Positions 24,670 through 63,499 of a stretch of DNA of 64,000 bases are shown here, one piece after another. Positions within the stretch are counted from its first letter, which is position 1. Each line of letters starts with the position of its first letter. The notes below the pieces were generated by a model that had not been told where the DNA came from, did not search any database, and saw nothing but the letters and a program-made list of their open reading frames with translations. The position numbers were made by a program, and so were the translations under genes. Location of the stretch: positions 1 to 64,000 of IMG/VR virus record IMGVR_UViG_3300046820_001062, one strand, 5' to 3'. Origin of the DNA: a virus.

Positions 24670-24709
24670 AAGAATAACTGGTCACACTTGGCAACCAGTT
24701 ATATTCTTA
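24670..24709 (-). terminator. Hairpin at the end of the giant virion protein operon
   Basis: AAGAATAACTGGT (24670-24682) pairs with ACCAGTT-AT-ATTCTT (24694-24708) over 13 base pairs with a two-base bulge. It overlaps the stop codon of the 1965-aa gene (24707-24709). The U-tract on the minus strand is poor, so termination may be partial; the hairpin may also protect the 3' end of the message. Confidence 0.5.
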
Positions 24710-27700
24710 TTGTTTTGCTTTCATCTGATCTATCCTGTAGTTAGGATTAACTAGATCTCTAAAATTCTTAATACCTGTCAAATCCATCAGGTCTTTGCCA
24801 ATTTTAGCATCACCTTTTTGATATGCACCATATTTACGTCCATAGAATGCTTCTTTCCAAATGTCTTGATAAAACTGACTGTCATTATCAGGATCAGGTT
24901 CTTCTCCACCATTCATTGTCATAGCCATTCCATAGCTAATTGCATGAGAACCAAACTTTTTAAGGGCATTTAATTCTCTTGTATAGGAAGATACTGTGGT
25001 AAAGTTTCTAATGTATTCCTCAGAACCTCCACCAACTGGGAACATTGATACTGTTTCCCCTTTAACACCCCACAATACTCTAATAGCATTACCTTCAAGG
25101 AAACTTAATTCCTCATCATCATCATCTTTCTTTCTAACATAGTTTCTAGCCATCATTGATAGAATAGTTAGTATTAACATAGCAATAGCATCTCTTCTTG
25201 CTTGGTTTACCTTTCTTGTCAGAAAACTACCCATCTGATTCTTGTTGCTTTTTGACATTCTCTTGCTTCCTAGCAACAAATGTTTACCAACTTCTTGAGG
25301 GCCATATGCTTTCCAAGCTGTTGCCACTGCACTCCAGTAACCCATAGCTGCTTCAGAACCTTCCCAGTTTGGACGTAAGTATCCAAATCTGTTAAGTAAC
25401 TGAGGCACAAGATACTTTCTGAAGAAGAACACCATTTTACCAACCATGTTTTCTTCAAACTTAGTTTGGTCAGCTTTTGCATAGTTACCTTGAGCACGTC
25501 TCATTTCAGAGTAAATAATGTTTCTTACTCTGTTCTCATCATCTTGTGTGTACTCAACATCATTTCTTCTAATCATGCGTCCTTCTGAATCTTTCATGTA
25601 GATTTCATGAACAGGTACAGTTACGTCCTCACCATTAGCATCCTTCTTATAAACAGGTTTACCTTGACTATCATAACTATCGATAACTTTAAATCTGTGG
25701 TGATTCATTACAGCATACATTACAGTAACTGCAATTTCAGTATCACCTTTGTCTTGTAGCATATAGCCTAACTCTTGGACATTCAATGCTTTACCTTTAA
25801 GTCTGCGTCCTTTTGTTCCAGTAATTTCAGATACATACTTTAAGAAATCCTTTTGTGCAGGGTTAAAGAAACGATACAACATTGTAGAATCACTAACATC
25901 ACTTACCTTGCCCCAATCAGCAAAGTAGTTGTGCAAGAATCCATTGTATCCATATACTTTAGATTTAGCCCACATATAGTCAGCCTGTGTATACTTATCA
26001 CTTGCCAATCCACCTGCTGCAATAAATGCTTGTACGTTTCCTGAAATATAGTTCTTTGCCTGGTTGGCAACGTCAAAACCAATTCTAATAAAACTTGTGT
26101 ATGCAAATACTGCGTTCATTCTTTTGGTTAGCTTTCTATTCAAGTCGCTACCACTTTCTGTTTGACCATATAAAAACTTTCTACGTTCAAACTGAAGAAT
26201 GCTAATTACGTTTTTAAGTTCTGACAAACGTTTTGACATATCTATTTTTACGTCTTTGCCTGTTGCTTCATCCTTGATAAACATTGGTTTATCTTGCTGA
26301 ATGTTTTTCTGCAACTGCTCCGCCATAAATTCTAAATGTTCAATGTACATATCTGCTTGAGGAGCAACGTTTTGCATTGCAATATTATAATGAGCCTCTG
26401 TTGAATATTTTATAATTGAACCAATTGCATCTCTTGACTGTAAGTTTTCAGGTAATTGATCTGTAAATCTGTGTCTAATTTTAGAACCTAGATCACCAAA
26501 TACATTCTCAACAGCATCTTGTGAACCATATACCTTAACACTTTTGTCAATAAATTTCTGCCACTCAGCTTCAATAGAGTTTACCATTCCCTTACTAGAA
26601 ATATTTTCCACTGTTGAAGCAGCAAAACCTGGAACCTGATATCCAATCTTACGTCCTTCTGTCTTCATTTGTAAGTCAAAGAACATTTTCATGGTATCAT
26701 TATAGAAGCTGAATAACTCTTGATCTTTCATTAACTCCTTATATTTAGGATTAATATTAGGTGAGTTCTCATATCCAGGTGTTACAATGTAATGACCATC
26801 TTTGTTTTTACTAATAGCCTTTGGCATTGGTACACCATCTGGTGACTTCAAGAAATTAGGATTTTTTGAAGACTCTTTTAAACGTTTGATTTTGTATTTA
26901 GGATGAGGTACAGTTTCCATATACTTATCCTTTACAGTAGCAGCTGGTAACTTCTCAAAGTTATAGTTCTTTGGTACTCTATTATTTCTAATATCATACC
27001 CACTAAGAATGCTTTGATATTTATTATCATGGTGCATGTTATACCATTTTTCAAATTCTGCCTCTTGTAATCCAAATTGAGTTTCCTCAAAGATTAATTC
27101 TTCTTCCGCATCCTCAATAGCTTTTTTGTCACCAGATGTTCTAGCAACAGCAAGTTTATTTTCAGCTTCAATGATAGATCTTTGATGTGCATATAATGAT
27201 TTTACTTTTGATTCAAAAGCATCATTGTATGATTCACTCAATTGTAGTGATGATATTCTTTTGATTGCATCAGTTATTTCTCTTGATGCCTTCTTTTCTT
27301 CAGCAGTAAGTTTACCACCAGATTTAGAATTTTGCTCAATAATACTTTCAATTTCTGCATCTATTTCACTTAGTGTATCAATTTCAGATTGACTTAAATA
27401 TTGTGGTTTAATTCTTCCACCAATCTTATATGGTGAAAGTATGTCTCTACGCTTCTGCATCAAATCTGCAATCTCAGGATCAGATCCAAATATTGCAGCT
27501 CTTGCTTCATACAGAGCACTTAGTTCTTCATACCACTCAGAAGTAGGTTTAGTGACAGTGTTATCCTTTTTCCATTTTTCCCAAAGTTCAGGATGCTCTG
27601 ACTCATATCTAGACTTAGCATTAAACTGCATTCTTTCAAAGAAAGCTTGGTTAGTATCAAATTCAAATAGTGAGTTAAACTCATCTATCATATCTGCATA

Positions 27701-30604
27701 CTTTGGATTAAGTTCTTTTGCTTCAGCTCTTAACTTTTTAATTTCAATTTCCAGTTCTTGTAAGCGTTCAAAGTCATGATCCTCAAGTAATACTTCATTA
27801 CCTTTACCTACTTGGAAAGTAATGGTTTCAACTTCAAGATACTTTTCTTGCAACTTATCTTTGATATCATGAGGCATTCCAAGTTGTAGTTCATAGAACT
27901 TTTCATTAAATGGTAAGTGTGCATTATCCAACATCCATTTAATGTAATTAGTATTCTCTGCTTCTCTTTCAGATTGTTTTGCTAAAAGAGCATCTTTATA
28001 TTGTTGAGCATCTGCAGATTTAATGTTTTCATTAAACTTAATCTTAGCTTCATAAATCTCTTTATTCAACTGTCTGATTCTTGCACTAAATGCTCTGTAG
28101 GTATTCTCATATTCTTCACCAAAAGGTTTTGTCATATAAAGAATATTCTTTTCTACAGGGTTGCCATCTTTATCAATGCTAGTTGTTTTTCTCCATTCAG
28201 ACACTCTTTCATTTAGTTGTTCAACAGACATTCTTTTTAAAAGTGAATCTCTTTTCTGATCAAACTTCAATACTGCAAGGTTATTTTGAATTTCCATTCT
28301 AGCTAATCCTTCAGCATTTTTAAGCATCATTGTAAATGCAGCAATCTCAACACTACTATTTGAAGCAGACGCAATAGCTTTATCTAACATTAAGTTTTGT
28401 AACCAGCTATTACTATTAAAAGCTGTATTAGAACCCAAGTAAAGATTTGAGGTTGAAGTGGTTACGCCAGAAATATATCTTTCCAATGCAGCATCATCAA
28501 AGTCCAATCCACCATCAATGATAGCTTCTACTGTAAGTATTTGTCTTTCAAGTTTTTCAATCTCCAACATTAAACCTGGAGTATTGTCATTACCATCTTT
28601 TTCTAATTTCTCAGCAAGTTTTTGTTTATATTCCTTGCTCATAAATGAAAGCATAGATGACTTGACTGATTGAAAAATGCCATTAGCTTTACCAGCTTTT
28701 AGATTTTCAAGTTGCTTTTTCAATGTAATTAACTTTGCTTGCAATGCTTCTTTTACATCTGCATTTACTTCAGCAAACACTTTACTTCCAGGAGTCTTTA
28801 GAACTTGGATTGAATTGTGCATTGCTACTTTTGCAAAGTTTGACTGGATTCTAGCTAATGATGATTCCATCTCAGAAAGACGTTTCATCACTTCACTATC
28901 TACTGTTATATTGTTTTCAGGATTACTTCTAGCATCATCTACAATTTCTTTAATAATGTCTACTACAACATCCAAAGACTTAGATTTTTTATATGCTTCT
29001 AGAATCTGTACGCCTTCTTTTGACGTATAAGATTCCTTGTTAATTTTAAAGTTTGCAATTGCTTCATCAGATAATCTTGATAGAGTTTCCAAATCAATAC
29101 CCACAGACTCAATGGCCAAAGCTAAGTTCACTGAAAATTTTACATCCTCTGCTGATTGTGGTCTAGACAGAATAGCATTAAAGTCATTTAATGTTTTACG
29201 TCTTGTAGCAAGTATCTCTCTTAACGCTGGATTACTCTGATTAACATCAAGCTCTTTAATTTGCTTATTAATTTGATCTAACTCAGCATCTGCAATTTGT
29301 TTTAGTCTACTTCTTAGAGTTTCATCATTTTTAGATGTTGGTTCAAACTCTAATAGTTTTGCTTCCTTTTTAGCTTTTTCTTCTTCTTCAGTATCTGATG
29401 TAGGTATTTCTTTATCAACCACATCTCTCAAACTTTTAATCAGATCAGCTCCTCTAGTTGGATCAGCTACCCAATGCCCATTGTTATTTGGAATGTCTGC
29501 TGAACCTGCATAGTTGTAATAATTATCTTCATCAAATACATGTACTGTAGCTCCAACAAATTTTTTGTTATCATCTGTCTGATACATAAGAGCAACAATA
29601 GACTGAGCATTTACTTCTAGTCCACTTTGCTGTAAAATGTTCTCATATACTTTTAGCTGTAATGTCCATGTATCATATGCAGTTCTACCCTGACCTCTAA
29701 AAGCAGGTGAAGTTCCTTCTTTGTTAGACACAGGAAAAGATTTTTCTGCAAGATCTACAAATGCTAAGTCTTCATTTATAACTGGTTGACCAATTGGATC
29801 ATACTCAACAAGACGCTTTACTTTTTTAGTTTTAAAGTCAAATACACTTACACGTCCTTGAGTATCTACAAGCATCAAATCCAAACGTCCAATAACAGTA
29901 GTTCCAGTTCTGGTAGTACCTGTTACAGTAATCTCTGGAAGAATCATGTAACCTCTGTCATTATGTATTGATACGTGCATTGCTAAACGCTTTGCCATAT
30001 CAAACATTGTTGATTCATCCAAGTTTTCAATAAAGAAAGGATTCTTCTTTGTATAATTATTGTAGGCTTCTTTAAAGAAGTCTTCATCCACAATTTCAAA
30101 TATAGACTTTCCTGTATCCAAAGACTTGAGTTGACCTAACTCAAGAACCTCATGCATAAATGTTCCAAATAATTTAAATGCTTCATACTCTTTAGGATCT
30201 ACATTAAAGTCAGAAGACCCAATAAAGTTAGATACACTTACTGTTTTTACAGTTGGTTGTCCATTTTTTGCTAACTGAATATTTCTTCTTAAGAATTCTT
30301 GATAGTTATCATTCATTGAGATAAGCTGATCAATAGTATCTTTCTGTTTAGGATTAGCTTGGAACTTAAGTTTTTCTAAAGAAGTTCTTTGTTGGATCGC
30401 ACGTTGTAGTTTAAACTCATCAGAAGATCTAGATACTTGTTCATCCTTTTCTTCAACTTTAAGTTTGCTTAATAGTGCTTCAGCCTCTTCAACAGAAGGA
30501 GTATTGTTTCCATTTAAAGTATAAGCAGTCATAGCCTGACCTTCACCTAGTTTTTCTACTAGTTCTTTCCACTCAGGACTATTTGGATTTGGACATGTGT
30601 TCAT
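24707..30604 (-). CDS. Giant virion protein with PD-(D/E)XK nuclease-like domain (1965 aa)
   Basis: About residues 140-340 show a PD-(D/E)XK nuclease pattern of the RecB/Cas4 kind: GTFMHEVLE (His and Glu), EITVTG, GRLDLMLVD (D242), DFKTKK (D256, K258), then a QLKVYE helix, so the active site looks intact. The rest is long and helical, with many coiled-coil stretches (about 380-1150). Near 1520, SFIRIGFDVANQAKNY...VQAFIAAGG resembles segments of large polyvalent phage proteins, and one transmembrane helix lies near residue 1800 (AIAMLILTILSMMARNYV). It starts one base after the RNA polymerase gene, so the two are co-translated and probably packaged together. It may act on DNA during entry; this is inferred. 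Confidence 0.75.
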   Translation of the reverse strand: MNTCPNPNSPEWKELVEKLGEGQAMTAYTLNGNNTPSVEEAEALLSKLKVEEKDEQVSRSSDEFKLQRAIQQRTSLEKLKFQANPKQKDTIDQLISMNDNYQEFLRRNIQLAKNGQPTVKTVSVSNFIGSSDFNVDPKEYEAFKLFGTFMHEVLELGQLKSLDTGKSIFEIVDEDFFKEAYNNYTKKNPFFIENLDESTMFDMAKRLAMHVSIHNDRGYMILPEITVTGTTRTGTTVIGRLDLMLVDTQGRVSVFDFKTKKVKRLVEYDPIGQPVINEDLAFVDLAEKSFPVSNKEGTSPAFRGQGRTAYDTWTLQLKVYENILQQSGLEVNAQSIVALMYQTDDNKKFVGATVHVFDEDNYYNYAGSADIPNNNGHWVADPTRGADLIKSLRDVVDKEIPTSDTEEEEKAKKEAKLLEFEPTSKNDETLRSRLKQIADAELDQINKQIKELDVNQSNPALREILATRRKTLNDFNAILSRPQSAEDVKFSVNLALAIESVGIDLETLSRLSDEAIANFKINKESYTSKEGVQILEAYKKSKSLDVVVDIIKEIVDDARSNPENNITVDSEVMKRLSEMESSLARIQSNFAKVAMHNSIQVLKTPGSKVFAEVNADVKEALQAKLITLKKQLENLKAGKANGIFQSVKSSMLSFMSKEYKQKLAEKLEKDGNDNTPGLMLEIEKLERQILTVEAIIDGGLDFDDAALERYISGVTTSTSNLYLGSNTAFNSNSWLQNLMLDKAIASASNSSVEIAAFTMMLKNAEGLARMEIQNNLAVLKFDQKRDSLLKRMSVEQLNERVSEWRKTTSIDKDGNPVEKNILYMTKPFGEEYENTYRAFSARIRQLNKEIYEAKIKFNENIKSADAQQYKDALLAKQSEREAENTNYIKWMLDNAHLPFNEKFYELQLGMPHDIKDKLQEKYLEVETITFQVGKGNEVLLEDHDFERLQELEIEIKKLRAEAKELNPKYADMIDEFNSLFEFDTNQAFFERMQFNAKSRYESEHPELWEKWKKDNTVTKPTSEWYEELSALYEARAAIFGSDPEIADLMQKRRDILSPYKIGGRIKPQYLSQSEIDTLSEIDAEIESIIEQNSKSGGKLTAEEKKASREITDAIKRISSLQLSESYNDAFESKVKSLYAHQRSIIEAENKLAVARTSGDKKAIEDAEEELIFEETQFGLQEAEFEKWYNMHHDNKYQSILSGYDIRNNRVPKNYNFEKLPAATVKDKYMETVPHPKYKIKRLKESSKNPNFLKSPDGVPMPKAISKNKDGHYIVTPGYENSPNINPKYKELMKDQELFSFYNDTMKMFFDLQMKTEGRKIGYQVPGFAASTVENISSKGMVNSIEAEWQKFIDKSVKVYGSQDAVENVFGDLGSKIRHRFTDQLPENLQSRDAIGSIIKYSTEAHYNIAMQNVAPQADMYIEHLEFMAEQLQKNIQQDKPMFIKDEATGKDVKIDMSKRLSELKNVISILQFERRKFLYGQTESGSDLNRKLTKRMNAVFAYTSFIRIGFDVANQAKNYISGNVQAFIAAGGLASDKYTQADYMWAKSKVYGYNGFLHNYFADWGKVSDVSDSTMLYRFFNPAQKDFLKYVSEITGTKGRRLKGKALNVQELGYMLQDKGDTEIAVTVMYAVMNHHRFKVIDSYDSQGKPVYKKDANGEDVTVPVHEIYMKDSEGRMIRRNDVEYTQDDENRVRNIIYSEMRRAQGNYAKADQTKFEENMVGKMVFFFRKYLVPQLLNRFGYLRPNWEGSEAAMGYWSAVATAWKAYGPQEVGKHLLLGSKRMSKSNKNQMGSFLTRKVNQARRDAIAMLILTILSMMARNYVRKKDDDDEELSFLEGNAIRVLWGVKGETVSMFPVGGGSEEYIRNFTTVSSYTRELNALKKFGSHAISYGMAMTMNGGEEPDPDNDSQFYQDIWKEAFYGRKYGAYQKGDAKIGKDLMDLTGIKNFRDLVNPNYRIDQMKAKQ

Positions 30605-30605
30605 A

Positions 30606-33600
30606 TTATAAGCACTTAATTTTATCTATAATTTGTTCATTTGACATTGTTGCTCTTAGGTTAGCAATCATACCTTGCGCTGCAGCTTTGAATACTTCTG
30701 GAGACATTCTCTTGCTACTTTCTGAATATAAAGAATTAACAACCTCATCAGTTAAATTTAAGTTCTCCATATCAATTTGCAACTGAGATTTAGTTGCAGG
30801 TTCCTGAGTTTGTTTTTCTGTAGATTCTGGTAGTGTTCCTACTGCTTCTTCAGACTTTTTAATCTCTGGTGCAATATACTCTAATTTTTCCTTACCTGAA
30901 ACATAATCCATATACTTCTTAGTATTCTCTTTTGTAAAACCAATTGGACTTAATGTTCCAGCTGTAAGTTGTGATGGAATTAATGCATATCTAGCAGACA
31001 TACCTTTGCTGATATATTCACCTCTACCAACAATAGAATTGATAACTGTTTTACCAAAACTGTTATTACTTATTTCATCATCTACACCCTGTAATAAATA
31101 CTTACTTCTATCTATAGAAATGATCAGTGGAAAATTGTACAATTCATTAATTGGATCATATTTAATACCCAATTTCTTACCAATTGCTTCAACAGTCTTT
31201 TTAGTTACTTGTACAATATCTTTTGGTACATCCATATTAAATTCCAATACTTCTACTGGTTTTTTATTTATAGTATCTACCAGTTTTACACTTGTCACAT
31301 CTCCTTCAGTAAATTGTCCAGTGATTCTTGAAATTACTTCTCTGGCAACAGCTCTTCGTTCTCTTTCTTTAGTACCTTCTTCAAACTGAAGTGATGTCAT
31401 TATATTTGACATGTTGTTTAATGATAGTCGTTCTGCAATTTTAATCTTGGTATTACCAACTTCTTTACTTGCAGCTTGAGCCATTTGAATAAACAACTCA
31501 TCAAATAAATCATAAACTTCTTTCTCAGTAATTTCTTTACCTAAAAACTCTTGAATAGCACTGATCAATTTGTAGCGATCACCTTTGGTTTCCTCAAGTT
31601 TAGAAATAAAGGTCTCAATGTAACCAGACAAATCTAATTGCATTTCAGGATTCATGTACTGTAAAAAAGATCCTGATTTATATTGCATACCAGTTTTTGC
31701 AAGTTCATGATAGAATAACTTCTTCATAAACATGTTTTCTGTTCTCAATAAGAAGTCTGCATCGTCAGATACTTCATCAGCAAGTTTACCTGAAATCTTA
31801 GACTTGTTAATCATCTTAAGACTTCTTTCATTCAAATAACCACCAGACTTTAAGAATACTTTGTTATCAGATACATCTGGTCTTAGTAACTGTAAGAATT
31901 TATTTTGAGGATACTTCTTTTGCATGTCCTCTAATTCTTTAGCTAACTCATTTGTAAACCAATATTCAGGAGTAAATGTATTAAGTAGATTCTGATCATC
32001 TTCCTTAATCAATGTATCCATTGTTGTACCAGTAATTCTACTTCCAGGCATTGACATTTGATACTTTCTCAAAGCCACAAAGCTTGTAATAATTTTTGCA
32101 ATGTTTGCTTGATCTGTAAATACAGTTTCAAATGACTTTTTAATTGGAGCAAAGAACTCTGTTCTTTCTAAGAATATTTTAGACGCTTGAGTATTTAAAT
32201 CTTCTATTGCCTCAAGTAATTGTGGCCATACTTGATTATTTTCAAAAATCTTATCACTTGACTCTTTTGTAAAAATACTTTCACCAGCTTCTAAGTTTCT
32301 TACATTAGTCAATAGCTTATCAAAATTAACAAAAGAAGGATTAAGCTTTTTAAATAAATCAATAATTGAACCTGCACGTTTGATATCAAATGTTTGTTGT
32401 GCTTGCTCTTTGTAAAGTTGTAACAAAATCATTTTTTGCTCAACTTCAGAAAGTTCTGTTCTGTTCAATACTTTTTCTGCAGCATTTTCCTCTGACTTAG
32501 ATTCTACAATAGCAGATACCTTATAACCAATATCAGTAGAAGATAATGTATTGTTAAGAATTGCTTTTGGATCTAGAGCTTTAGCATTAAAATCAATTAA
32601 GAGTTTATTCTTATTGATAATAATGTTATAAGGATTTGATCGTGGAGATATTAAACCTGCACTAATTAAGTTTGGAATAGCATCTTTATTTTCAGCAGCT
32701 AATAACTTTATCTGTTCTGCTACTTCATTATTTAAGAATTTGTATGCAGTAGCCATTGACTCACTGATAGCATATTTTGTAGACTGAACACTTTGCACTG
32801 CTTTTTTAATTTCAGGTATAAAGTTAAATCCAATAGCGAACTCAGGTGACATACCTACACCTATCATGGCAAGTGTAACACCAGCGTTTACTTCATTCAT
32901 TTGTAATGCTGCAGGAATAGGTTTCTTAGCACCATCCGCAAACATACCAAGAATGTTACCAATCAATGCTATAACACGTTGATCTTCAATGTTTAATGTA
33001 CCAAACTTATTAAAGTTTACTTGTTCTAAATTTGCATTTTTAAATGCCCAAACAACATTCTCAGGTTTTAATTCCAATCCATATTGAGATGCAAGAGCTA
33101 AGAACTTATTAATGTTTGCTGTAATACCAATACCATCTTTGTTCATAGCATTTCCTACTTTAGTAGAAACCACACCATCAGTTGTATACATATTGTACTT
33201 GGTAGAAAAATCTTTAATGTCAATACCAAATGCTTCTAAAATATCCTCAAAACGTTGAGTAGAAGATCTTTCATGAATGTACAAGAATTTATGTACAGCT
33301 TCGTTAGATACAATGTTTAACTTAGCTTGTAAGTTTTTGTTTTGGAATACAGGACGTACTGATAAAGCATAATTAGGATTTGCTTCAAATGCTTGAGCAC
33401 TTGTTGGTAATCCTAGTTTACTAAATGCTTGCAAAGTTGCAGCAACCTTAAGTCCTGCAAATGTAAAGCGTTTTGCTCTACTTACTTCTCTACCATATTT
33501 ATTTCTTTGATCACGTTTCTGTCCTAGTTCTTCATTATATTCACCTACCTCTTTACCTAAATCAATTCTATCTTGCAATGCTCTTCTGTCTGAAGGATTA

Positions 33601-36600
33601 ACTTCATTTCTTCTAATAGCATCAACAAATTCTTCTTTAGCTTCATCTCTTATCTCCATTAATTCCTCAATATCAATAACAAGATTGTCATAAGATTCTT
33701 TAAGTTCTGCAAAATTCATTGCACCATTGTAGTCAGACTCATCAAATCCTGAATGGTATAGAATACTTAAAGCTTCTTCAGTTATGTTGTAAGAATTATT
33801 TTCAAGCAATGCTTTTGTTTCTTTTTTAATTAAAGCTTTTAAGTCTGCATCCTTACTCATATACTGAACAAACTCAGCATACTTATTTAAGTTTGTGTTC
33901 TTTCCATCTTGATACTCACCATATAACTTAGGATTACCTGATAAGTCAAAGTAATGTGCAAATGTTTGACCATACAAAGCATCAACGTCAAAGTCAGAAC
34001 CTGCAAGTAAGTGTACAAAATGTGGTACAATTACACCATTAAGATTAGAACTATCAATAAAATCAACAACTTTGATTGCAATCATAGAACGCTTGTCCTC
34101 TGTAGGAATACGTACACCAAACATCTTAGTTAAGTTCTGCATGTAGAATCTCTCATGTGCAGCACTTTTAAACAAAGGTTTAGGCATAATTGCTTCTACA
34201 TAGTAAGTCTTAACTCCATTTACTTCTTCAACTGTTACACCAAGAGGTCTTGATTTTACATTAGGATAAGCTGAAGGATTCTTACGATATTGTTCTGTAG
34301 TAATAACATTTCCATTTTCATCTTCAAGTACATTATAACCAAAAGAAGAGATATGTATATTTTTGAAACCAGAACCTTTTTCATCTGTAACATGTTTTGA
34401 ATATTGTGAAAAGAAATAATACTCAAGCATGTTACGCACGCCAGGAAGATTTGCACTATGAACTGGCTTACCAGAAGCATCTACATCAAATAATTTTAAT
34501 GTTGCTGTAGGTGCACCTTGTTCTTCTAAACTTGTACGTATTAATGTAAATATTTTACCAACCTCAAAGTCACCATCTTTTCTCAAGATAGTTTTTAAGT
34601 TAGCTAAGTTAGATACACCAATTTCTTTTAATGTACTTTGATATTCTTCAAGAACACTTGCAATATTATCAATTGCTTTTTGCTCTGAAGCTGTAATACT
34701 TAAACCGCTTGCTTTAGCAATTTCTGCAAGATTAATTAAATCAGCAGCAATAAGGGCCTTGCTTTGTACAGAAAACTTAGCTTTATCCTTAACACCAGAA
34801 GTCTCTACTTGTAAAAACTTAAATTTATTATCTACTTGTAAAGAAGACATTGCAAGATTGATATAACTATCTGTGCCTGCAATTCTTTCTGCCTCTATCG
34901 CATAGTCAACAGGAAGCATTGTAGCATTTTTAGATGCAGTAGTATCCATAAGTTGATCAACTTGATGATACTCCATAGCATTTAAAATGTTATGTAATGT
35001 TTGACGATGAGGTAATGCTTTAAAGTATGTATGAATTTCTTCTACGTTCTTTGTAATTGCATTGTCAATATCTGTAAGTGCACCTAATTCACCAGCAAGA
35101 ACTAAATCTTGACGTTGTCCACGTAAAGAATAAATATCCATGTACAAACCATGAAGTGCATTATGAGCATCTTCTAAAGTTTGCCCAGCTTTTGGTGTAA
35201 GAATGCTTACATCATTTCTGTCAATATAGTTTTCAGATTGTTTATGATAACTATTTCTTGCTGCTGTAACAGTTTTCTTAGGGTTGTTTACAACCTTACC
35301 TGCTTCCATTACGCGTATTTCTGTTTCAGAAAGCTCACGGTAATGCTTAGCAATGAGAGAATGCAATATCTCAGGACTCAATCTACCCATAGATTCATGC
35401 ATATCAATTTGATGCATCAGCGATGAGATACTTTGTCCATCAAATATATCATACATTGATGTACCATAATCCTTAAGAATTTCTTCTCTTACAGATTCTG
35501 ACTCAATGCTTTCATCATTTATAACCTCCTGCTCAGAATAGTAGGGACCATATTGAGGATAGCTTTCATTTATGTAACCCTGTATGGTATTTAAGAACGC
35601 AACTTTGTGGTAACCTTCTTTCATTGTACTACCACCAGCTAATAACTTCTTATTACGCTTAAAGTAGTCAGTTGCATCCTTAACATTCATTGCAATATCA
35701 CCATCAATTATTTCATTGAAATGTAAAGCATTCATCCAGTTGTTAAAGAAAGCATCAGCAACTAATCCTCTCAAATCTGTTGCTGCTTCTAGTTTACCAC
35801 CAGCCTCATTATAATTCTCCTTTGTTTTCTGATAAAGGCCATCAATTGAAACTGCAGGCGCACTGTCAACTCTCAATACAGAAGGTATAAGAGTTGATGT
35901 ATAATAAGTAATAGGTTCTACTTCTGGACCACCAACACCTCTTGTGATTAATTCACCTTTGGCATTTCTTTGTTTTTGAGTAGTTTTTTGTAATATACCT
36001 AAATCAATAAGTTTGGTAGCATGCTTGTTTAATTGTTCTTTAGCATAATTTTCTAAAGTATCCAGTAATGCATCTTTTATTTCTTGATCAAGATCTTCAA
36101 ATGCAATACCCGCTTTTGCAAAATCTGCCAAACCAGTTTTAGTTTCATTAGATTCTAATTCTGGATTAGCACTGAAAAAATCTGCTATCTTATTAAACTT
36201 ATATGCTCTTAAAGATGAATCATCTGTAATAGCTTTAGATTTATCTTGACTATCTAACTTACCATTGTATTTATCAATTATTTTATTAGACTCTTTGTTG
36301 TCAAAGTTTTCTTTGTTCTCAGCACTTCTAGCCCACTCTTTAGCAATACGGTTGTATTCTTGTTTAACAACAGCTTCAAGAGTATCAACAATTTTAAGAC
36401 GTTTGTCAGCATTTAAAACTAATCCTTTAGAATTAGCAAATTGATTATATAATGCTGTTACCAAGAAGTTTGTTTGAGATGCTTCTAACTGAGAAAATGA
36501 ACGTACATAGGTTTGAATTTTTGTAGCTACATCTTTTACTTTTCCATTTTCATCTAACTCTTGTCTAAAACTAGACTCAGTTGTTCTCTGTAAGAACGTA

Positions 36601-39600
36601 AGAATGTTTGTAATGTATAAAGACTTCTCATCAATATTTTTAAAACTCTTTCCTTCTTTTTGTTTTTCACCAATAGTTTGAGACACACCTCCAAACAATG
36701 ATACTTTGAAGTTGTCCATAAACAATTTCATTTCTTTTGCCTTTTGGGTATCTAATCCTTTAAGTAAATCACCTAACATTGCATTATCTGCATAGAATGA
36801 TTCTAAGAAATCTGCATAAAAAGGATCTTCTTTTAAAGTTTCAAGTAAACCTTTTGTACGTATTGACTGAGCAATAATAGTTGCAGGTGTGTAACTTACA
36901 TATCTATAGATAGGTTTACCCTCTGCATTACGTACAGTACTTGGTAATTCATTAGGATCATATTTAACAATGTACTCTGCTGCTTTTTTAATAATGGAGT
37001 TAAAGCGATTAACTGTATCACTCTTGCTGTTCTTTTCATCTAGTAATACTGCAAAGTCATTTGAAGAGATTTTGTTTATACTTATCTTTTCAAAAATATT
37101 AATTACATCAGTAAAGAAATCCTTTTCCAAATACTTCTTCTCAGAAATAAATTTAGAGTGATTATTGTAATGTGTAAGTGGAGTACCTGTAATATTTAAA
37201 GTTGCTTTATTATCAACTTGATCAATTGCCATAATTGACATTCTAATCAAAGATTTAGGAAACTTCATGCCTACATCTTCAAAAGCTTTTTGTAACTCAA
37301 TAGTAATACTTTCTAGTTTTGCATTTTGAGATGTAACATCACTTAAAATAAAACTACTAGTTTTAATTGTACGTGATAACTGTAACAGTTTATCTACAGC
37401 AGCTAAGTACTCTGGATTGTTTTTATTTTCTTTGTACTTCTGAATAACAGAAGTAACTAAATTTCTTTTCTTATTATTAACATCCTGAGAATGTACTTTA
37501 TCAACAAGAGTAAAGTTTCTTGTATCAGTAAGAACTTCATCACCTTCTAAGAATGTTTGAGTTGTTTTAACATCAATCATGACATAATCAATCTCAGTCT
37601 TGTGTAAGACATCAACTATCATGTTGTATAATTGCTTGTTAGATTGAGGCACTCCTGACTCATCCATTTTTGTGTAGCGATTCAACTTATCATAGACAGC
37701 CATTAAATCACTACCAGCACTTGTATAGCCATCCTCAATTTGTTGTTGAGCAATAACTTTGATGTGCTCAATAATATTCTTAGGATCTATTTCAGCAGAT
37801 ATTTTAATAAGAGAACCAAATACTTGTTCACCAGCAATCATTCTAGGAACTTTAATTCCTAATGTTGGATGAACTTGGTCATATCTTACTACCGCTAAGA
37901 ACTTTCTAATCTGTCTTGGTAAAGACTCTAAAGCGTTGATCTCATTAAATGAAGCATCAAAATCAGAAGATTCTGGAACTTCTTGTTGGTCTTCAGCATC
38001 GTCATTTGCAATAGTATTTTCATTTGCACCTGACAATTCTTTTTCAATAACATCTTTATCAGAAGATTTTTCACTACCGTCAAGAATTGAATTAATTTTA
38101 TCAACTTGTTCTTTGACCTGCTTTTTAAGCATTTCATAAGATACTTGACCCAGGTGATTGTCTTGTAATTCTTCTTCACCATATACTTTAACAGAATTGT
38201 TTTTGTTAAATCTGTTATCATAAGATGGATTATCAGTTGTATTTAAATCATACAATGCTTCACCTTTTGCTCTAGCTCCCAACATAAATCTGTAGTTAGC
38301 ATACAAAGGGCCCATTGTTTTAATTACCTTTTCTTTTAATTCAGGATTAGACTTAAACAATTCTGCATTTGTCCTTAGCAAAACATCCATGTTATACTCA
38401 TAGTCCAATACAAGTTGAGCAATCCTATCAAACTTAGTAGAGAATGATTCTTTTTGCCCATCTTCTATTACATAACCCGCTAACATGTTTACAAGTTGAT
38501 CTTGGTCTGCTTTAGACAAGACACTTGTTTTTTGACCAACACCAGCTGGTGTGGATACAATTTGTTTAAGACCTGGAATCAACTCATAAGCAACCTGTCC
38601 ATCATATATACCAGAAGAGATTACTTCATTTCTGTATTGACCATTTTTAATTTTACCATAAACATTGTCAATGTAGTCTCCTTTAGATGTAAACATTGCC
38701 AATAGCTTTTTAAGCATAGCCATAAACTGACCAAGAATACCTTTTGGTTTAGTATTCTTTAACATATAGTTTTGGAATCCATCAGCTAGAATCTCTTCTG
38801 CTTGCAGGCGCGTCATTTCTTCTTTGTTATAAACATAGTTACGTTGACGTGCAAACTCTTTTAGAGCACCTTCAGTAAACTTATTAGCATGCTTTTTATT
38901 ACTTGTAACTGCATTAATAAGATTTTGTCTTTCCTCAGAATTCATTAAGAATCTGAATACACCATGAAAAGCTTCATGATAAATTACACCTTGTCCTTTT
39001 AGTGCATTATTCAAATAAATAACTTTATCTTTAAATGCACCTAGTACAGTTCCGTCTAATTTAGTAAGATCAATTACATCAGCTAAAGATTCATTATCAA
39101 TTAAGAATTGTGGTAATGCTTGTGCTAACCATTCAGAAGCAGCAAGTCTTTGTTCAGCTGTTTCAACAATAACATTTGCATCATCTGTTAAAGAGAACAC
39201 CTCAATGTCAGGAATATCTGTAGTGTCTTCTTCAATTGTATTTAAAGGTTCTTGTTTGTGAATCTTTTCACTCTCTACAATTGGAGCAATTACTTCTTGT
39301 GTTTTAGTAACCTGTGCAACAGCAGCTTTTGGAACTACTGTAAATTTCTTACTACTAGCTTGTAATATTTTAAAGTTTGCAAGATCTTCACGATACTCTT
39401 TACGCTGAGCAGGTTGAGCATATTCTATTCTAGGATATAATACACCAGACTCATCAGTATCAGCTACTAATAGCTCAGGTCTATAAACCCCATTAAATGT
39501 AAAATCTCTTTTTAATTGTTGTACAAACTCTGGGAACATTGTTGTTCTTTCAGCAAGTTTGTTTATAATATTATCAACTAAATATTCTGCAAACTCTTTT

Positions 39601-41927
39601 TGAGCTTTTTCAATACTATCACTTAATTGTTTTAAAATAAGAAGAGCTGTTTCTGAATTACTCAACTTATTTACTTGCTCATAGAATGCAACTAAATCTG
39701 TGGTGTTTGTTAAATCTAAAGTTTTTAAAGCAGGATATGCTTCTCTTACTTGATTTACAAGAGGACCTTTTCCAATTAATGCTTTAGCTAAATTTGTTAT
39801 AACAGCTTCATTAACAGGAAAATTAAACTGATTTTTATTTTCAGGTTCAGCAATAAAACCATAAGGACCTTGTTTGTCCATTGGTCTAATTTCTATTTGT
39901 AACTGTCCTGCTTTTGATGTTGCAAAGTTTACACGCAATGGTGCTTTGTTATCATCATTTGGTCCTTGTTTTGCTTTGTTGTAAAACTTGAATCCATATG
40001 CATTTCTATCAAAATTTCTGATATCACCAGCTCTGTTTGCTGATGTTTGAAGAATATTTGCTAGAGATACAATAAACTTTGCAAACTCTACTTGCTGAGA
40101 CATCTGTAATACAGGAGCAATACTTCTGTATCCAATTGTTCCATCAGCATTAAAACGCAACAGGATATTTAACTGATTACCATGTTCTGGTTTAACTATT
40201 TTACCTTGTATCTCAGAAGGATTGATACCTAATACATCACTTGCATACACCTCTTGAGAAACTGTAGCACCATTCTCTAATTGAATTAGTTGTCCTTTTG
40301 CTAAAAATGGTTTAAGTATGTAAGGATCATTTTTAACTTTTGTATAAATAAAAGGAACACTGATTACTTCTGAGTTTACTATTGCACCATTAACCATTGT
40401 TACAACTGTCAATGGTTTTGACAAAGTTGTATCTAATTCTATCTCATCTTTTAGTAATTGCTTTTTGCTGATATCTGTTCTTTTTGAATTAGCTTCATAA
40501 GAATTAAAAAATTCAGTAGTAACATCAATTGAGTTATCAGATGTACCAGCAACCTTATCAGAAATACTTGATTTAAAAACTTGAAATAATTTGTTAGACT
40601 CAGACATTGACATAACATCTGTATCAGTTAAGGATTTATTTCCTTCTTTTGTATTCTTTACGGCAAGAGTTTTAACCAATGCCAAATGTTCTGGGTTTGA
40701 AAAGTCAACTCTCTCTGTTGTATTATCACTACTAACAAATACAAAGTTGTCAGAAGAATACATGTAAAATTTTTCACCGCTGCCAATAATCTCACCAACA
40801 AGAACAAATTGTTGTTCACTTGCTTTAGGTCTAGAAACAGTCATGATCTTCTTAGTGGAAGATGCTTGCAACGCTTTTATTTGTGTAGCGTTTTCAAATG
40901 TTTCATGTTCTCTGTTTTCAAGGGAAGAATACTTTGGATTTTGTTTTGCTGCTTCCTGGATACGTTCAACCCTTCTATCTGCAACATCACTTAATTTAAC
41001 TGCATGAATTTTAATACCAGCTTGTGGATTTTTCATGTTAGCTAATTTCTTTTCTAATTCAAATTGATCAGCTGAATCAACTGCTTTAATTGAAAAACTA
41101 GAAAGAAGTGTGTGTTCTTGGAATACTTGTTCCCCAGCATTACTTTTTGAGTTATCTGCAACGCGTGCGTCTTTTGCTGCAAGAATTTGTGAAGAATCAA
41201 TTGTTTGCAAAGATCCATCACTTGTAATAACTTTAAATTGTTCATCTTGTCTTACTCCTTCAACCATTTGACCATTTGTCAAAGTGATTAATACATTATT
41301 CAAATCTGCTAGATTAGCAATATCTGACAATGGAATAAAACTAGATGATTTCCTTAAAGAGTTTATCGCTTCATCAACCTGCTTGATTAAAAAATCTTTA
41401 TGAGCTTGAGGAGAATCATGTTCTATAATTGCGTTCTTAATTGCTGTAGAAAATTCATTTAGCAATTGTTCTCTTTCCTCATTTGTTGGAAAAGCTGTAA
41501 TACTAAAATAGTTTTTAACAGATGTAAGAATACCTTCAGAAGAAATTAAGTCCTGACGTGTTATGTTCTTTTTAGTAGATAATTTGTCAATTGCTTTAGA
41601 AATGCTTTCAACTTTTAAAGGTGAAGGCTTTTTAACGCCTAACATTTCACTGACTGTTGATACATAATTTGATGCATCATCCATAAGTACTACAGCACTG
41701 ATAACGCCTTCAGCATTTCCAGGATTGTAAAACTCACTATCAATACCTGCTAAACCCTTATAAATATAAGCCATGTTATGCAGTGACATCATCTTTTGTT
41801 CAGGAGTCAGTGCACTACCAAGTATAAACTTTGAAGCATTATCAAAGTTATTATATACTGAAGGGTCTAGTTTAATTAAGTTAAGTACAACTGAAGTGTA
41901 CTTGTCAGTTTGTATTTGACATGCCAT
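30606..41927 (-). CDS. Giant virion RNA polymerase polyprotein with zincin protease domain (3773 aa)
   Basis: The largest gene in the window. At residues about 2590-2655 lies an RNA polymerase beta'-like second double-psi barrel: VRIPTEDKRSMIAIKVV, then a segment ending LLAGSDFDVDALYG, with D2645, D2647 and D2649 as the magnesium-binding triad. This pattern matches the YonO/crAss-like single-chain polymerases, which are packaged in the virion and transcribe early genes. Residues about 975-1060 form a separate zincin: IYHEAFHGVF (H984, E985, H988) followed by QAEEILADGFQNYM with the third ligand Glu near 1045. Other parts, N-terminal 900 residues and C-terminal 1000, show no motif I know. The zincin might cut this protein into parts, but that is not shown here. 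Confidence 0.9.
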   Translation of the reverse strand: MACQIQTDKYTSVVLNLIKLDPSVYNNFDNASKFILGSALTPEQKMMSLHNMAYIYKGLAGIDSEFYNPGNAEGVISAVVLMDDASNYVSTVSEMLGVKKPSPLKVESISKAIDKLSTKKNITRQDLISSEGILTSVKNYFSITAFPTNEEREQLLNEFSTAIKNAIIEHDSPQAHKDFLIKQVDEAINSLRKSSSFIPLSDIANLADLNNVLITLTNGQMVEGVRQDEQFKVITSDGSLQTIDSSQILAAKDARVADNSKSNAGEQVFQEHTLLSSFSIKAVDSADQFELEKKLANMKNPQAGIKIHAVKLSDVADRRVERIQEAAKQNPKYSSLENREHETFENATQIKALQASSTKKIMTVSRPKASEQQFVLVGEIIGSGEKFYMYSSDNFVFVSSDNTTERVDFSNPEHLALVKTLAVKNTKEGNKSLTDTDVMSMSESNKLFQVFKSSISDKVAGTSDNSIDVTTEFFNSYEANSKRTDISKKQLLKDEIELDTTLSKPLTVVTMVNGAIVNSEVISVPFIYTKVKNDPYILKPFLAKGQLIQLENGATVSQEVYASDVLGINPSEIQGKIVKPEHGNQLNILLRFNADGTIGYRSIAPVLQMSQQVEFAKFIVSLANILQTSANRAGDIRNFDRNAYGFKFYNKAKQGPNDDNKAPLRVNFATSKAGQLQIEIRPMDKQGPYGFIAEPENKNQFNFPVNEAVITNLAKALIGKGPLVNQVREAYPALKTLDLTNTTDLVAFYEQVNKLSNSETALLILKQLSDSIEKAQKEFAEYLVDNIINKLAERTTMFPEFVQQLKRDFTFNGVYRPELLVADTDESGVLYPRIEYAQPAQRKEYREDLANFKILQASSKKFTVVPKAAVAQVTKTQEVIAPIVESEKIHKQEPLNTIEEDTTDIPDIEVFSLTDDANVIVETAEQRLAASEWLAQALPQFLIDNESLADVIDLTKLDGTVLGAFKDKVIYLNNALKGQGVIYHEAFHGVFRFLMNSEERQNLINAVTSNKKHANKFTEGALKEFARQRNYVYNKEEMTRLQAEEILADGFQNYMLKNTKPKGILGQFMAMLKKLLAMFTSKGDYIDNVYGKIKNGQYRNEVISSGIYDGQVAYELIPGLKQIVSTPAGVGQKTSVLSKADQDQLVNMLAGYVIEDGQKESFSTKFDRIAQLVLDYEYNMDVLLRTNAELFKSNPELKEKVIKTMGPLYANYRFMLGARAKGEALYDLNTTDNPSYDNRFNKNNSVKVYGEEELQDNHLGQVSYEMLKKQVKEQVDKINSILDGSEKSSDKDVIEKELSGANENTIANDDAEDQQEVPESSDFDASFNEINALESLPRQIRKFLAVVRYDQVHPTLGIKVPRMIAGEQVFGSLIKISAEIDPKNIIEHIKVIAQQQIEDGYTSAGSDLMAVYDKLNRYTKMDESGVPQSNKQLYNMIVDVLHKTEIDYVMIDVKTTQTFLEGDEVLTDTRNFTLVDKVHSQDVNNKKRNLVTSVIQKYKENKNNPEYLAAVDKLLQLSRTIKTSSFILSDVTSQNAKLESITIELQKAFEDVGMKFPKSLIRMSIMAIDQVDNKATLNITGTPLTHYNNHSKFISEKKYLEKDFFTDVINIFEKISINKISSNDFAVLLDEKNSKSDTVNRFNSIIKKAAEYIVKYDPNELPSTVRNAEGKPIYRYVSYTPATIIAQSIRTKGLLETLKEDPFYADFLESFYADNAMLGDLLKGLDTQKAKEMKLFMDNFKVSLFGGVSQTIGEKQKEGKSFKNIDEKSLYITNILTFLQRTTESSFRQELDENGKVKDVATKIQTYVRSFSQLEASQTNFLVTALYNQFANSKGLVLNADKRLKIVDTLEAVVKQEYNRIAKEWARSAENKENFDNKESNKIIDKYNGKLDSQDKSKAITDDSSLRAYKFNKIADFFSANPELESNETKTGLADFAKAGIAFEDLDQEIKDALLDTLENYAKEQLNKHATKLIDLGILQKTTQKQRNAKGELITRGVGGPEVEPITYYTSTLIPSVLRVDSAPAVSIDGLYQKTKENYNEAGGKLEAATDLRGLVADAFFNNWMNALHFNEIIDGDIAMNVKDATDYFKRNKKLLAGGSTMKEGYHKVAFLNTIQGYINESYPQYGPYYSEQEVINDESIESESVREEILKDYGTSMYDIFDGQSISSLMHQIDMHESMGRLSPEILHSLIAKHYRELSETEIRVMEAGKVVNNPKKTVTAARNSYHKQSENYIDRNDVSILTPKAGQTLEDAHNALHGLYMDIYSLRGQRQDLVLAGELGALTDIDNAITKNVEEIHTYFKALPHRQTLHNILNAMEYHQVDQLMDTTASKNATMLPVDYAIEAERIAGTDSYINLAMSSLQVDNKFKFLQVETSGVKDKAKFSVQSKALIAADLINLAEIAKASGLSITASEQKAIDNIASVLEEYQSTLKEIGVSNLANLKTILRKDGDFEVGKIFTLIRTSLEEQGAPTATLKLFDVDASGKPVHSANLPGVRNMLEYYFFSQYSKHVTDEKGSGFKNIHISSFGYNVLEDENGNVITTEQYRKNPSAYPNVKSRPLGVTVEEVNGVKTYYVEAIMPKPLFKSAAHERFYMQNLTKMFGVRIPTEDKRSMIAIKVVDFIDSSNLNGVIVPHFVHLLAGSDFDVDALYGQTFAHYFDLSGNPKLYGEYQDGKNTNLNKYAEFVQYMSKDADLKALIKKETKALLENNSYNITEEALSILYHSGFDESDYNGAMNFAELKESYDNLVIDIEELMEIRDEAKEEFVDAIRRNEVNPSDRRALQDRIDLGKEVGEYNEELGQKRDQRNKYGREVSRAKRFTFAGLKVAATLQAFSKLGLPTSAQAFEANPNYALSVRPVFQNKNLQAKLNIVSNEAVHKFLYIHERSSTQRFEDILEAFGIDIKDFSTKYNMYTTDGVVSTKVGNAMNKDGIGITANINKFLALASQYGLELKPENVVWAFKNANLEQVNFNKFGTLNIEDQRVIALIGNILGMFADGAKKPIPAALQMNEVNAGVTLAMIGVGMSPEFAIGFNFIPEIKKAVQSVQSTKYAISESMATAYKFLNNEVAEQIKLLAAENKDAIPNLISAGLISPRSNPYNIIINKNKLLIDFNAKALDPKAILNNTLSSTDIGYKVSAIVESKSEENAAEKVLNRTELSEVEQKMILLQLYKEQAQQTFDIKRAGSIIDLFKKLNPSFVNFDKLLTNVRNLEAGESIFTKESSDKIFENNQVWPQLLEAIEDLNTQASKIFLERTEFFAPIKKSFETVFTDQANIAKIITSFVALRKYQMSMPGSRITGTTMDTLIKEDDQNLLNTFTPEYWFTNELAKELEDMQKKYPQNKFLQLLRPDVSDNKVFLKSGGYLNERSLKMINKSKISGKLADEVSDDADFLLRTENMFMKKLFYHELAKTGMQYKSGSFLQYMNPEMQLDLSGYIETFISKLEETKGDRYKLISAIQEFLGKEITEKEVYDLFDELFIQMAQAASKEVGNTKIKIAERLSLNNMSNIMTSLQFEEGTKERERRAVAREVISRITGQFTEGDVTSVKLVDTINKKPVEVLEFNMDVPKDIVQVTKKTVEAIGKKLGIKYDPINELYNFPLIISIDRSKYLLQGVDDEISNNSFGKTVINSIVGRGEYISKGMSARYALIPSQLTAGTLSPIGFTKENTKKYMDYVSGKEKLEYIAPEIKKSEEAVGTLPESTEKQTQEPATKSQLQIDMENLNLTDEVVNSLYSESSKRMSPEVFKAAAQGMIANLRATMSNEQIIDKIKCL

Positions 41928-41955: not shown

Positions 41956-44900
41956 TCAAGAGAAACAATCTGTTATCTTCCTCAATTCATCTAAAATTGA
42001 TTCTTCAGTAACAATACCTCCCTCTACAAATTTACTACTTTTTTCTGATACTTGCTGCATTTCAGCGGTACTAATTACACCTTGAATTTGCTTATGTAAT
42101 GTTTGTAAACTTTCAAGAGTTAAACTTGCAGAAGTTGCAGGTGATACAGTTGTGTCAAACAAAGTTGGTTGTGATTCATCAGACTTTGTTACAATAACAG
42201 CTTTTGGTTTACCATACTTTATAGGTTGACCTGTAATAACAGATTCTCTAATTGCAGTTAATAACTCTTTACCTTTTGGTGTTTTATAATACTCCTCAAG
42301 AGTTTCAAAACTTGTTTTGTTCATGCTGTTAAATCTTTTCATTGATTTCATAGCACGATCATGCATTTCAACAATCTTAGAGTTTTCTGAAAGATCTTCT
42401 AACATTGGAGAAATGAATTGTTTAGCAAACTCAAGATTTAATCTTGTAGCATTCAAACTGTCAGAAAGCTGTTGAGCTTCTTGTTCACTTTCAAACTTTT
42501 CAGATGTTACAGGAGTATTGCTTTTATCTACAACATCAAAACCAGACTCAGTTGTACCATCTACTACAAATGGTTCTTCATTTTCAACAGGTTGAACACC
42601 CATTAATCCAGCAAGCATGCTTGATACATCTTGAGCACCTACACCATCTGTACCCTCTTCTGTCACAGGTTGAACTGCAACAGGTTGTTCTACAGGAGTC
42701 AATGTTTCAACTTCTGTTTCAATAGGAGTTGGTTCTTCAACAATCTCACCGTTCTCATCTACAAAAGGAACAGGAGCTTCTTCTTCTACTTGATCACCAC
42801 CGTTTATAGGAACTCTTGAAATCAACTCACCATCAGGTCCAACCTCTGGTAAATCTTCTTGATTTGCAGTAATGATTGGTTCTTCTGTTACAGGTTCCTT
42901 AGATTTTTGCTCTTTAACTTCATTATCAAAGTCATCTTTAAACATGTTATAAACCTTTTCTTCATTAGGAAGTAAAGGTTGATTCTTAACTAGTTTGTCA
43001 AGAATAACAAATTTTCTAACACTTGCATCATCTAATGCTCCGGCAGCAATGATTTCATCTAACTCTTCTACTGACAAATCAGATAAGCCATCAGATTTAT
43101 ATTTTGCAATACCTTCTTTAACTGCAGTTTTAATAGTTTCATTTATCTGCTCTGATAACTTTTGAGCATACTCAGCATTTTCAATACCAACATTTGGATC
43201 TACAGCTAACGTGAGGATATTGTTATAAGCCTCACTAGAAGTTACAGCTGTTTCAATATCAGCTAGAAGATTTACATACTCTTGTTGATTTAAACCTAAT
43301 TCAATAGCAGCTGTCATTGCTGCAGTAGAGTAGCGTGCTGATACAGTATCTACATAAGTAATCAACTTATGCTTGAACTTACCATCAGCCATTCTTGCCA
43401 ATGCTCTTTGAAAGTTTTCTGGATTCATCAATACATCTACTGACCTCATATAGTCTTTAGTATCTTGATCCAATCTCATGTAATCATAGACTTTCTCAAA
43501 AGAATCTCTAACAGTTTGTTCTGTCAATTCAGTGTTGTTACCAGCTTGTTTGTTTTTAATAGCCATTAACTTTCTGAATGTATCTAAAACTTCAGGATGA
43601 TCTATGCTATATACTTCCTCATTTCTTTTTGTTTTAACGCCATTTTCATCCTCCTGTTCAGTTGTATCTAAATACTTCTGACCAACAAATAAGTTAGATT
43701 CATCTTCAGTAATATCTTCACCTTCAGCATTTTTACCTATAACATTTTTTCTAGTATCCCAAAATGTTTTCCATTTGTTAACTAATGCAAGTTCCTCCTG
43801 TTTATTTTTAATTTGTTCAGCAAGTGCTTTTTTAGCTTCAGGTTCAATACCTTCAGCCTGTATGTTTGTATTTAAAATTTTAAGTTCAGCTATAATATTT
43901 CCCACTTCAGCATCTACTGATCCAGCATTTGTCAATGTTCTTAATGCAAAGTCAGCTGAAACACCCATGTTAGGCATTGCCAATATTTCACTGGCTACTT
44001 GCTTTGCACGATTTGAAGTCATCTCACCTTTTACAGTATTCAATGCAATTACCTGAATCGCATCTTCTTGAGCTTGTCTTGTTATACTTGTAACATATCT
44101 ACCTCTTGATCCTTCTGAATAAGCTATAGGATTAGCTAGTTTATTTTTAACATGACTTGTCACGTTATCAATAGTGTCAGAATACTTTTTAATATCTCTA
44201 GCTACTGCTTCAGAAAACTCTTGAGCTGTAGCATATTTTGTGTTTTCTAATTTATAACCAAATGATTTTTCAAAATCTTCTGCAGTCATGTCTACACCCA
44301 TATCTTTAACAGCTTTGTAAAGCATGTCAATTGAATGTGTACGTTTAGCACTTGCTACTGCAGATAATAATGAATTGTCTTTACCATTTTCAAAATCATA
44401 TCTTGAACCTTGTGCTGCTGCTTGTGCGACTTCTTGAGCAGCAGTCATTTGAGCATTAAAGTTAAATACTTTTTGTTCAAACTTACCTTCGTGAGCTTGT
44501 TTGAACAATGAGTTCATTTGTGATAAATCATCATCTAATTGTTTTTCAGCCTTTAAAATAGGATTTGAAGTAGGATCATTTTTGTATTGATTACTTATTA
44601 CAGCCCTATTTGCAGCATCCAAAGATCTTGATGCTACAGCTGTTGGGAGTCTAATAACAGAACCTGTTAACGCACCCATTAAGAATGTTTTTAAACCTTG
44701 TTTTGTAAACTGCTCTTCAGCTCCTTTTTCAAATGCTTCTGACAATGCGTACTTTGTACCATTCATTTGCCCAGCATAATAATCACGCCACCCAGCAGCA
44801 GTTGTTTCTTGTAAGTTTTCCTGAAGACCTTCTACAATTTCAAACTTAAGAGCATCTTTAAAGAACGCTTTACCAAATTGGTATGCTGCTTCTTTTTTGC

Positions 44901-63128: not shown

Positions 63129-63499
63129 TACTCTTTGATGTTGTAATTTTTCTGACGTAATACTTTATAAATTGTCTCAGTCAAGTGACCAACTAACCAT
63201 GCAGTAGATTCTTCATCTGTGATGTTAATGTCAGTTAATATTCTAACTGCTAAATGGTATACCTCATGTGATATAAGATTGATTGTAAGTTTATCTTCTT
63301 CATATACAATGTAGTATTCTAAACCATTTTTACCAGGCATATCAAACACACATCCATAACTATCTGTAACATCAACTAATGACTTAGTTTTTTTATCAAT
63401 ATAGTCTTGCATATCCTGCATGCTTTCTACAACACGTAGATTTACTACTGCATCATAAATAGCAAGGTTTATTTTTTTTTTAAATATTTTTGCAGCCAT
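63128..63499 (-). CDS. Small zincin-like metallopeptidase (123 aa)
   Basis: The motif SHEVYHLAVRILTD (H78, E79, H82) followed by TDEESTAWLVGHLTE (acidic residues near 95-97) matches the small HExxH proteins found beside neck and tail genes of many Bacteroidota phages. All zinc-binding and catalytic residues seem present. It overlaps both neighbours by one base (TAATG junctions), so it is made in step with the neck-like and nozzle-like proteins, suggesting a role in virion maturation. Substrate unknown. Confidence 0.8.
   Translation of the reverse strand: MAAKIFKKKINLAIYDAVVNLRVVESMQDMQDYIDKKTKSLVDVTDSYGCVFDMPGKNGLEYYIVYEEDKLTINLISHEVYHLAVRILTDINITDEESTAWLVGHLTETIYKVLRQKNYNIKE

Follow-up and report, generated by a model that had tools for sequence, protein, structure and literature searches.

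Virion RNA polymerases and zincins in crAss-like phages

The solved crAss-like virion RNA polymerase (RNAP) is gp66 of the Cellulophaga phage phi14:2 (PDB 6VR4), a protein of 2180 residues with the catalytic signature DFDID, and the phi14:2 polymerase drives early, rifampicin-resistant transcription (PMC10136315, PMC7886860). In crAss001, the proteins gp47, gp49 and gp50 were found in virions by mass spectrometry, and a partly unfolded passage through the tail was proposed for them (PMC10172136). The crAss001 polymerase gp50 (DFDVD) and the zincin-like metallopeptidase (HEAFH), which forms the end of gp47, are encoded by separate genes on opposite strands, with gp49 on the strand of gp50. Zincin and DFDVD polymerase are likewise separate in p-crAssphage (gp45 and gp44), where the record of gp45 bears the label 'RNAP associated protein fused to zincin protease'. 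Separate encoding holds for both Steigviridae and Intestiviridae, and in the latter the zincin lies at the end of the polymerase's upstream gene.

On the other hand, three genomes of Suoliviridae (delta crAss-like phages; cr273_1, cr125_1 and cr52_1) carry HEA[FW]H and DFDxD in one annotated polypeptide, 1530-1876 residues apart, and in these fused polypeptides an in-frame TAG is the sole internal stop. Outside the crAss-like phages, the N4 virion RNAP is one giant chain with a metallopeptidase domain (PMC5512222), and in gp96 of the Thermus phage P23-45 a virion RNAP is fused to a metallopeptidase (PMC10770324). A survey of the open-access literature found no paper on the zincin in crAss-like phages.

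A probable giant virion polymerase in an IMG/VR virus record

The window analysed here, a stretch of 64,000 nucleotides, comprises positions 1 to 64,000 of the IMG/VR virus record IMGVR_UViG_3300046820_001062, and its features are compiled in Table 1. The record has 123,730 bases, and it is close to complete, because the 1472 bases at one end and those at the other share 96.8% identity; that the two end copies differ may reflect either mixed strains or an assembly error. The initial annotation had described an open reading frame of 3773 residues with a DFDVD loop and an upstream HExxH motif. Both are real, with HEAFH beginning at residue 984 and DFDVD at residue 2645, 1661 residues apart on the minus strand.

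Table 1. Position and assignment of the features of the giant open reading frame and of neighbouring genes (window coordinates).
Feature	Coordinates	Strand	Remarks
Giant ORF	30606..41927	minus	3773 aa, ATG start; N-terminal region, zincin and probable crAss-like virion RNAP catalytic subunit
Zincin-like metallopeptidase domain	38478..39287	minus	residues 881-1150; homologous to C-terminal zincin of crAss001 gp47
HEAFH	38964..38978	minus	residues 984-988; predicted zinc-binding/catalytic motif
EEILADGF	38775..38798	minus	residues 1044-1051; candidate third zinc ligand Glu
Acidic variable linker	37908..38165	minus	residues 1255-1340, between zincin and polymerase modules
Polymerase core	32778..36347	minus	residues 1861-3050; matches phi14:2 gp66 fold
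Lys2333	34929..34931	minus	invariant in lineage (K473, 31-sequence alignment of residues 1861-3050)
RIPTEDKRSM	34083..34112	minus	residues 2606-2615; invariant in 31-sequence alignment
DFDVD	33981..33995	minus	residues 2645-2649, predicted metal-binding catalytic motif; three Asp invariant
RNAP-associated protein, crAss001 gp49/phi14:2 gp65-like	24707..30604	minus	1965 aa
Upstream neighbour	41956..46380	minus	1474 aa; weakly like N-terminal part of gp47/gp67
Virion structural protein, crAss001 gp44 position	57132..63128	minus	1998 aa; phrog_37948 E 1.8e-66

Searches of Pfam, PHROG and PDB sequences with the whole protein returned nothing meaningful, so that it seemed to be an orphan until its regions were taken separately by tblastn and profiles. 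With residues 2400-2960, tblastn retrieved 111 phage records, mostly crAss-like, several of them annotated as RNAP catalytic subunits, at E values down to 2e-14. A 31-sequence profile of residues 1861-3050 was matched by hhalign to a six-sequence profile of Crassvirales RNAPs, which includes phi14:2 gp66, with 99.96% probability (E 8.9e-39) over 844 collinear columns. An AlphaFold2 model of the same residues reached a pLDDT of 85.5 and a pTM of 0.78, and the sole significant match among 350,542 PDB chains, as searched by Foldseek, was 6VR4_A (phi14:2 virion RNAP, E 4.5e-22). This match, judged on the predicted core as a whole, supports the presence of two double-psi beta-barrels in one chain. 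A profile of the motif region, compared with PDB sequences, gave coiled-coil matches only, which were dismissed as an effect of composition.

We thus arrive, with a probability of about 0.9, at the reading that the 3773-residue protein represents a crAss-like virion RNAP catalytic subunit, with a zincin and an N-terminal region fused ahead of it. By profile and predicted fold the polymerase is of the single-chain, two-barrel type represented by phi14:2 gp66; it shares with that protein the core fold and the pattern RIPxxxxxS...GSDFD[VI]D, although identity is only about 13% and gp66 lacks both zincin and N-terminal part. The initial proposal of a virion-type, two-barrel RNAP of the YonO/crAss class, joined to a zincin, is therefore borne out by the profile match and the 6VR4 fold, and the PDB comparison, in returning 6VR4, spoke against the lack of a double-psi-barrel fold that would have refuted it. 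The polymerase part would extend roughly from residue 1300 to 3773, about the length of crAss001 gp50, its start being estimated by length against gp66 and gp50. The excess size remarked upon earlier is the additional N-terminal portion of some 1250 residues.

The polymerase motifs

The motif RIPTEDKRSM...GSDFDVD is collinear with its counterparts in gp66 and gp50, and direct alignment gave VPTEDKYSM...GSDFDVD for crAss001 gp50, RIPTEGKQS...GSDFDVD for p-crAssphage gp44 and RIPNQGQSS...GSDFDID for phi14:2 gp66. Taken singly, neither DxDxD nor HExxH means much, since 2000 shuffled copies of the protein contained D.D.D in 1109 and HExxH in 74 cases; the combined pattern R[IV]P[TSN][EQ]-(25-40)-D.D.D occurred in none of them. 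That DxDxD, present by itself in about half of the shuffled copies, might be a chance match in a structural protein with no polymerase at all is contradicted by the agreement, in both fold and profile, with the crAss-like virion RNAP of known structure, and is hardly credible.

Conservation among relatives likewise far exceeds what chance would give: of the 54 sequences formed by the window and 53 related IMG/VR loci, 53 contain RIPT...G.D.D.D; the one exception (L011) is cut off by the contig end ahead of the motif. The catalytic motif itself reads DFDVD in 20, DFDID in 19, DLDID in 10, DLDVD in 2 and DKDID in 2 of these 53 sequences, so that only the three Asp are invariant, with F, L or K between the first two. 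In L059 and L060 the form is GSDKDID, with Lys replacing the Phe between the first two catalytic Asp, a position taken by Leu in other relatives. Valine at the fourth position had been singled out as a change worth remarking, a view that had to be abandoned because crAss001 gp50 and p-crAssphage gp44 carry DFDVD, as do cr273_1 and cr125_1. Lys2333 was aligned, profile to profile, with Lys1065 of phi14:2 gp66, which is invariant among known crAss-like RNAPs, and may be the Lys that is conserved in the beta-like barrel.

Lineage and neighbouring genes

The 53 distinct loci related to the window were collected in three scans of IMG/VR; a scan of bacterial genomes gave one further contig, assigned to a Spirochaetia MAG but perhaps of phage origin and placed there by binning. 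When the motif region was used for a tree, all 23 sequences of the window clade were split from all 10 sequences of the four named families (support 96/93), although the deep order is unsure owing to long branches, and the window polymerase falls outside the named Crassvirales families (Steigviridae, Intestiviridae, Suoliviridae, Crevaviridae). The same genome encodes a crAss-like major capsid protein (MCP, phrog_11589) and portal (phrog_6547), identified both by PHROG and by relatives. The best match of the MCP in INPHARED, at 27%, is in the Leptolyngbya phage Lbo-JY46. This cyanophage (L023, L024, L074) has relatives of the MCP, portal and TerL of the window phage as well as gp49-like and gp47-like proteins; a motif scan of Lbo-JY46 found no RNAP-type DxDxD.

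The polymerase ORF adjoins a partner gene of the gp49/gp65 type, in keeping with its place in a crAss-like genome. The similarity of this 1965-residue product is weak (blastp E 5e-5 for gp65 and 2e-3 for gp49), and it contains a PD-(D/E)XK nuclease domain at residues 139-262 (PF12705, E 1.8e-5); nucleases of that type have been reported in transcription-block proteins of crAss-like phages (PMC7886860). The upstream neighbour matched phi14:2 gp67 (E 4e-4) and JY46_382 (E 2e-13) in blastp, the latter itself matching gp47 (E 3e-10); a comparison of the neighbour with gp47 by hhalign gave no conclusive alignment. The virion structural protein in the position of crAss001 gp44 contains a VWA domain at residues 1463-1615 (PF00092, E 6.5e-10). 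Next to it, positions 52600-57132 (minus strand) encode 1510 residues with SET (E 3.8e-7), DUF5872 (E 9e-20) and DUF5754 domains; with an HExxH at residue 288 as well, this product of the structural block has the mixed domains and the look of a polyvalent protein. A 123-residue protein with HExxH (SHEVYHLAVRI) and no Pfam match is encoded at 63128-63499 (minus strand).

The zincin domain and its fusion to the polymerase

Residues 933-1100 were matched by blastp to residues 2105-2292 of crAss001 gp47, where HEAFH is also found, with 25% identity and an E value of 7e-7, and hhalign comparisons gave 93.5% (E 2e-7) and 98.2% (E 3e-14); the domain is homologous to the zincins of both crAss001 gp47 and Suoliviridae. 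HE.FH and EE..A are invariant in a 29-sequence alignment. The predicted structure is poor (pLDDT 59) and confident only near the HEAFH and EE helices, in which both motifs are placed; a PDB search with this model gave no fold match and is meaningless at that confidence. Pfam matches on members of the zincin family were scattered and weak, and were dismissed. The linker towards the polymerase contains 19-29% Asp/Glu and varies in length among relatives. One relative (L054) has an insert of about 300 residues in the linker ahead of the zincin, with the motif VYHGT...F..F, which recalls the ADP-ribosyltransferase domains of phage polyvalent proteins.

Both full motifs, HE.FH...EE..A[DE].F and that of the polymerase, are present in one ORF in 45 of the 54 sequences, 1514-1730 residues apart. 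The five loci without HE.FH all start inside the ORF, downstream of the place expected for it; wherever a locus of the lineage reaches both modules, they share one ORF. The single polypeptide was considered as a possible novelty and rejected as such, because the three deposited Suoliviridae genomes carry both modules in one chain, and N4 and P23-45 offer further precedents (PMC5512222, PMC10770324). As in the window protein, HEA[FW]H precedes GSDFD[VI]D in KNV58_gp021 of cr125_1 and KNV62_gp35 of cr273_1, by about 1530-1880 residues; unlike the window protein, the Suoliviridae giant protein contains in-frame TAG codons and a longer N-terminal part, its zincin lying at residue 1990-2587, and in the polymerase tree it is not the nearest relative. 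The N4 enzyme differs in being a T7-type polymerase, and P23-45 gp96 in being a tape-measure fusion with DFDGD. A shifted gene boundary is the best reading of the fusion, since a homologous zincin closes the polymerase's upstream gene in Intestiviridae and closes gp47 in crAss001. What is new here is a deep crAss-like lineage (53 IMG/VR loci) that encodes zincin and polymerase in a single ORF wherever a locus covers them both.

Proposed function of the polymerase and role of the zincin

Judging from the family, the polymerase would be packed in the capsid near the portal, leave through the tail in a partly unfolded state, ahead of or together with the DNA, and then refold; it would transcribe early phage genes without the host polymerase, with the gp49/gp65-like protein probably acting as its partner in early transcription. 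The zincin most likely accompanies the polymerase as an active metallopeptidase, as its motifs suggest, and its substrate may be the polypeptide itself, a partner or a host protein. Three roles may be considered for it, each of them tentative.

The initial annotation held that the chain is probably cut into parts ahead of or during ejection. It is possible, if somewhat improbable, that the protein is a self-processing precursor, in which the zincin cleaves the linkers on either side of it to release the polymerase, whether prior to packaging, inside the head or once injected. HE.FH...EE..A[DE].F is kept across the lineage, linkers of low conservation flank the zincin on both sides, and the same order occurs in one chain in Suoliviridae, with the parts separate in Steigviridae and Intestiviridae; no conserved cut-site motif, however, was seen in the linkers. 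Precedent points both ways: autoprocessing has been proposed for N4-type RNAPs, and P1 DdrB, which contains a zincin, is processed before packaging, but the N4 virion RNAP with its metallopeptidase (MPTase) domain is packaged unprocessed (PMC5512222). Furthermore, setting free a fused polymerase cannot be what the zincin does in general, because in crAss001 it sits on gp47, whose gene lies on the strand opposite to the polymerase. If any cut is made, the acidic linker would be the likeliest place. More doubtful still is the specific proposal that the zincin acts as the self-processing protease of a DNA-phage polyprotein, cutting at about residues 1255-1340 and liberating some 2430 residues of polymerase at one particular point during packaging or injection; if true, activation of the virion RNAP would be a timed proteolytic step across the whole deep crAss-like lineage.

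An injected effector that rides on the polymerase and cleaves proteins of the host, in line with proposals for polyvalent proteins, is a comparably speculative alternative to self-processing. Among the domains of phage polyvalent proteins zincins are the most frequent, and host targets have been suggested (PMC5512222), and the zincin stays in cargo proteins whichever gene carries it; but the constant place beside the polymerase would fit a part in assembly or ejection equally well. Such a part, which need not be catalytic, is conceivable to a similarly limited degree: the MPTase-bearing region of the N4 virion RNAP is required for encapsidation (PMC5512222). Against a non-catalytic role stands the invariance of the HExxH residues His and Glu and of the EE pair, which suggests that catalysis has been kept.

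Significance for the crAss-like phages

The window polymerase is a distant new relative and no new kind of machine, since such a polymerase and its joining to a zincin both have precedents among known crAss-like phages; knowledge of how crAss-like virion polymerases work is unchanged. The finding extends the family of these polymerases to a deep lineage that keeps the zincin in the polymerase chain, and shows that Phe, Leu or Lys is tolerated between the first two catalytic Asp. The lineage supplies sequence diversity for alignments and a series of naturally occurring arrangements, some fused and some not, with which the role of the zincin can be tested.
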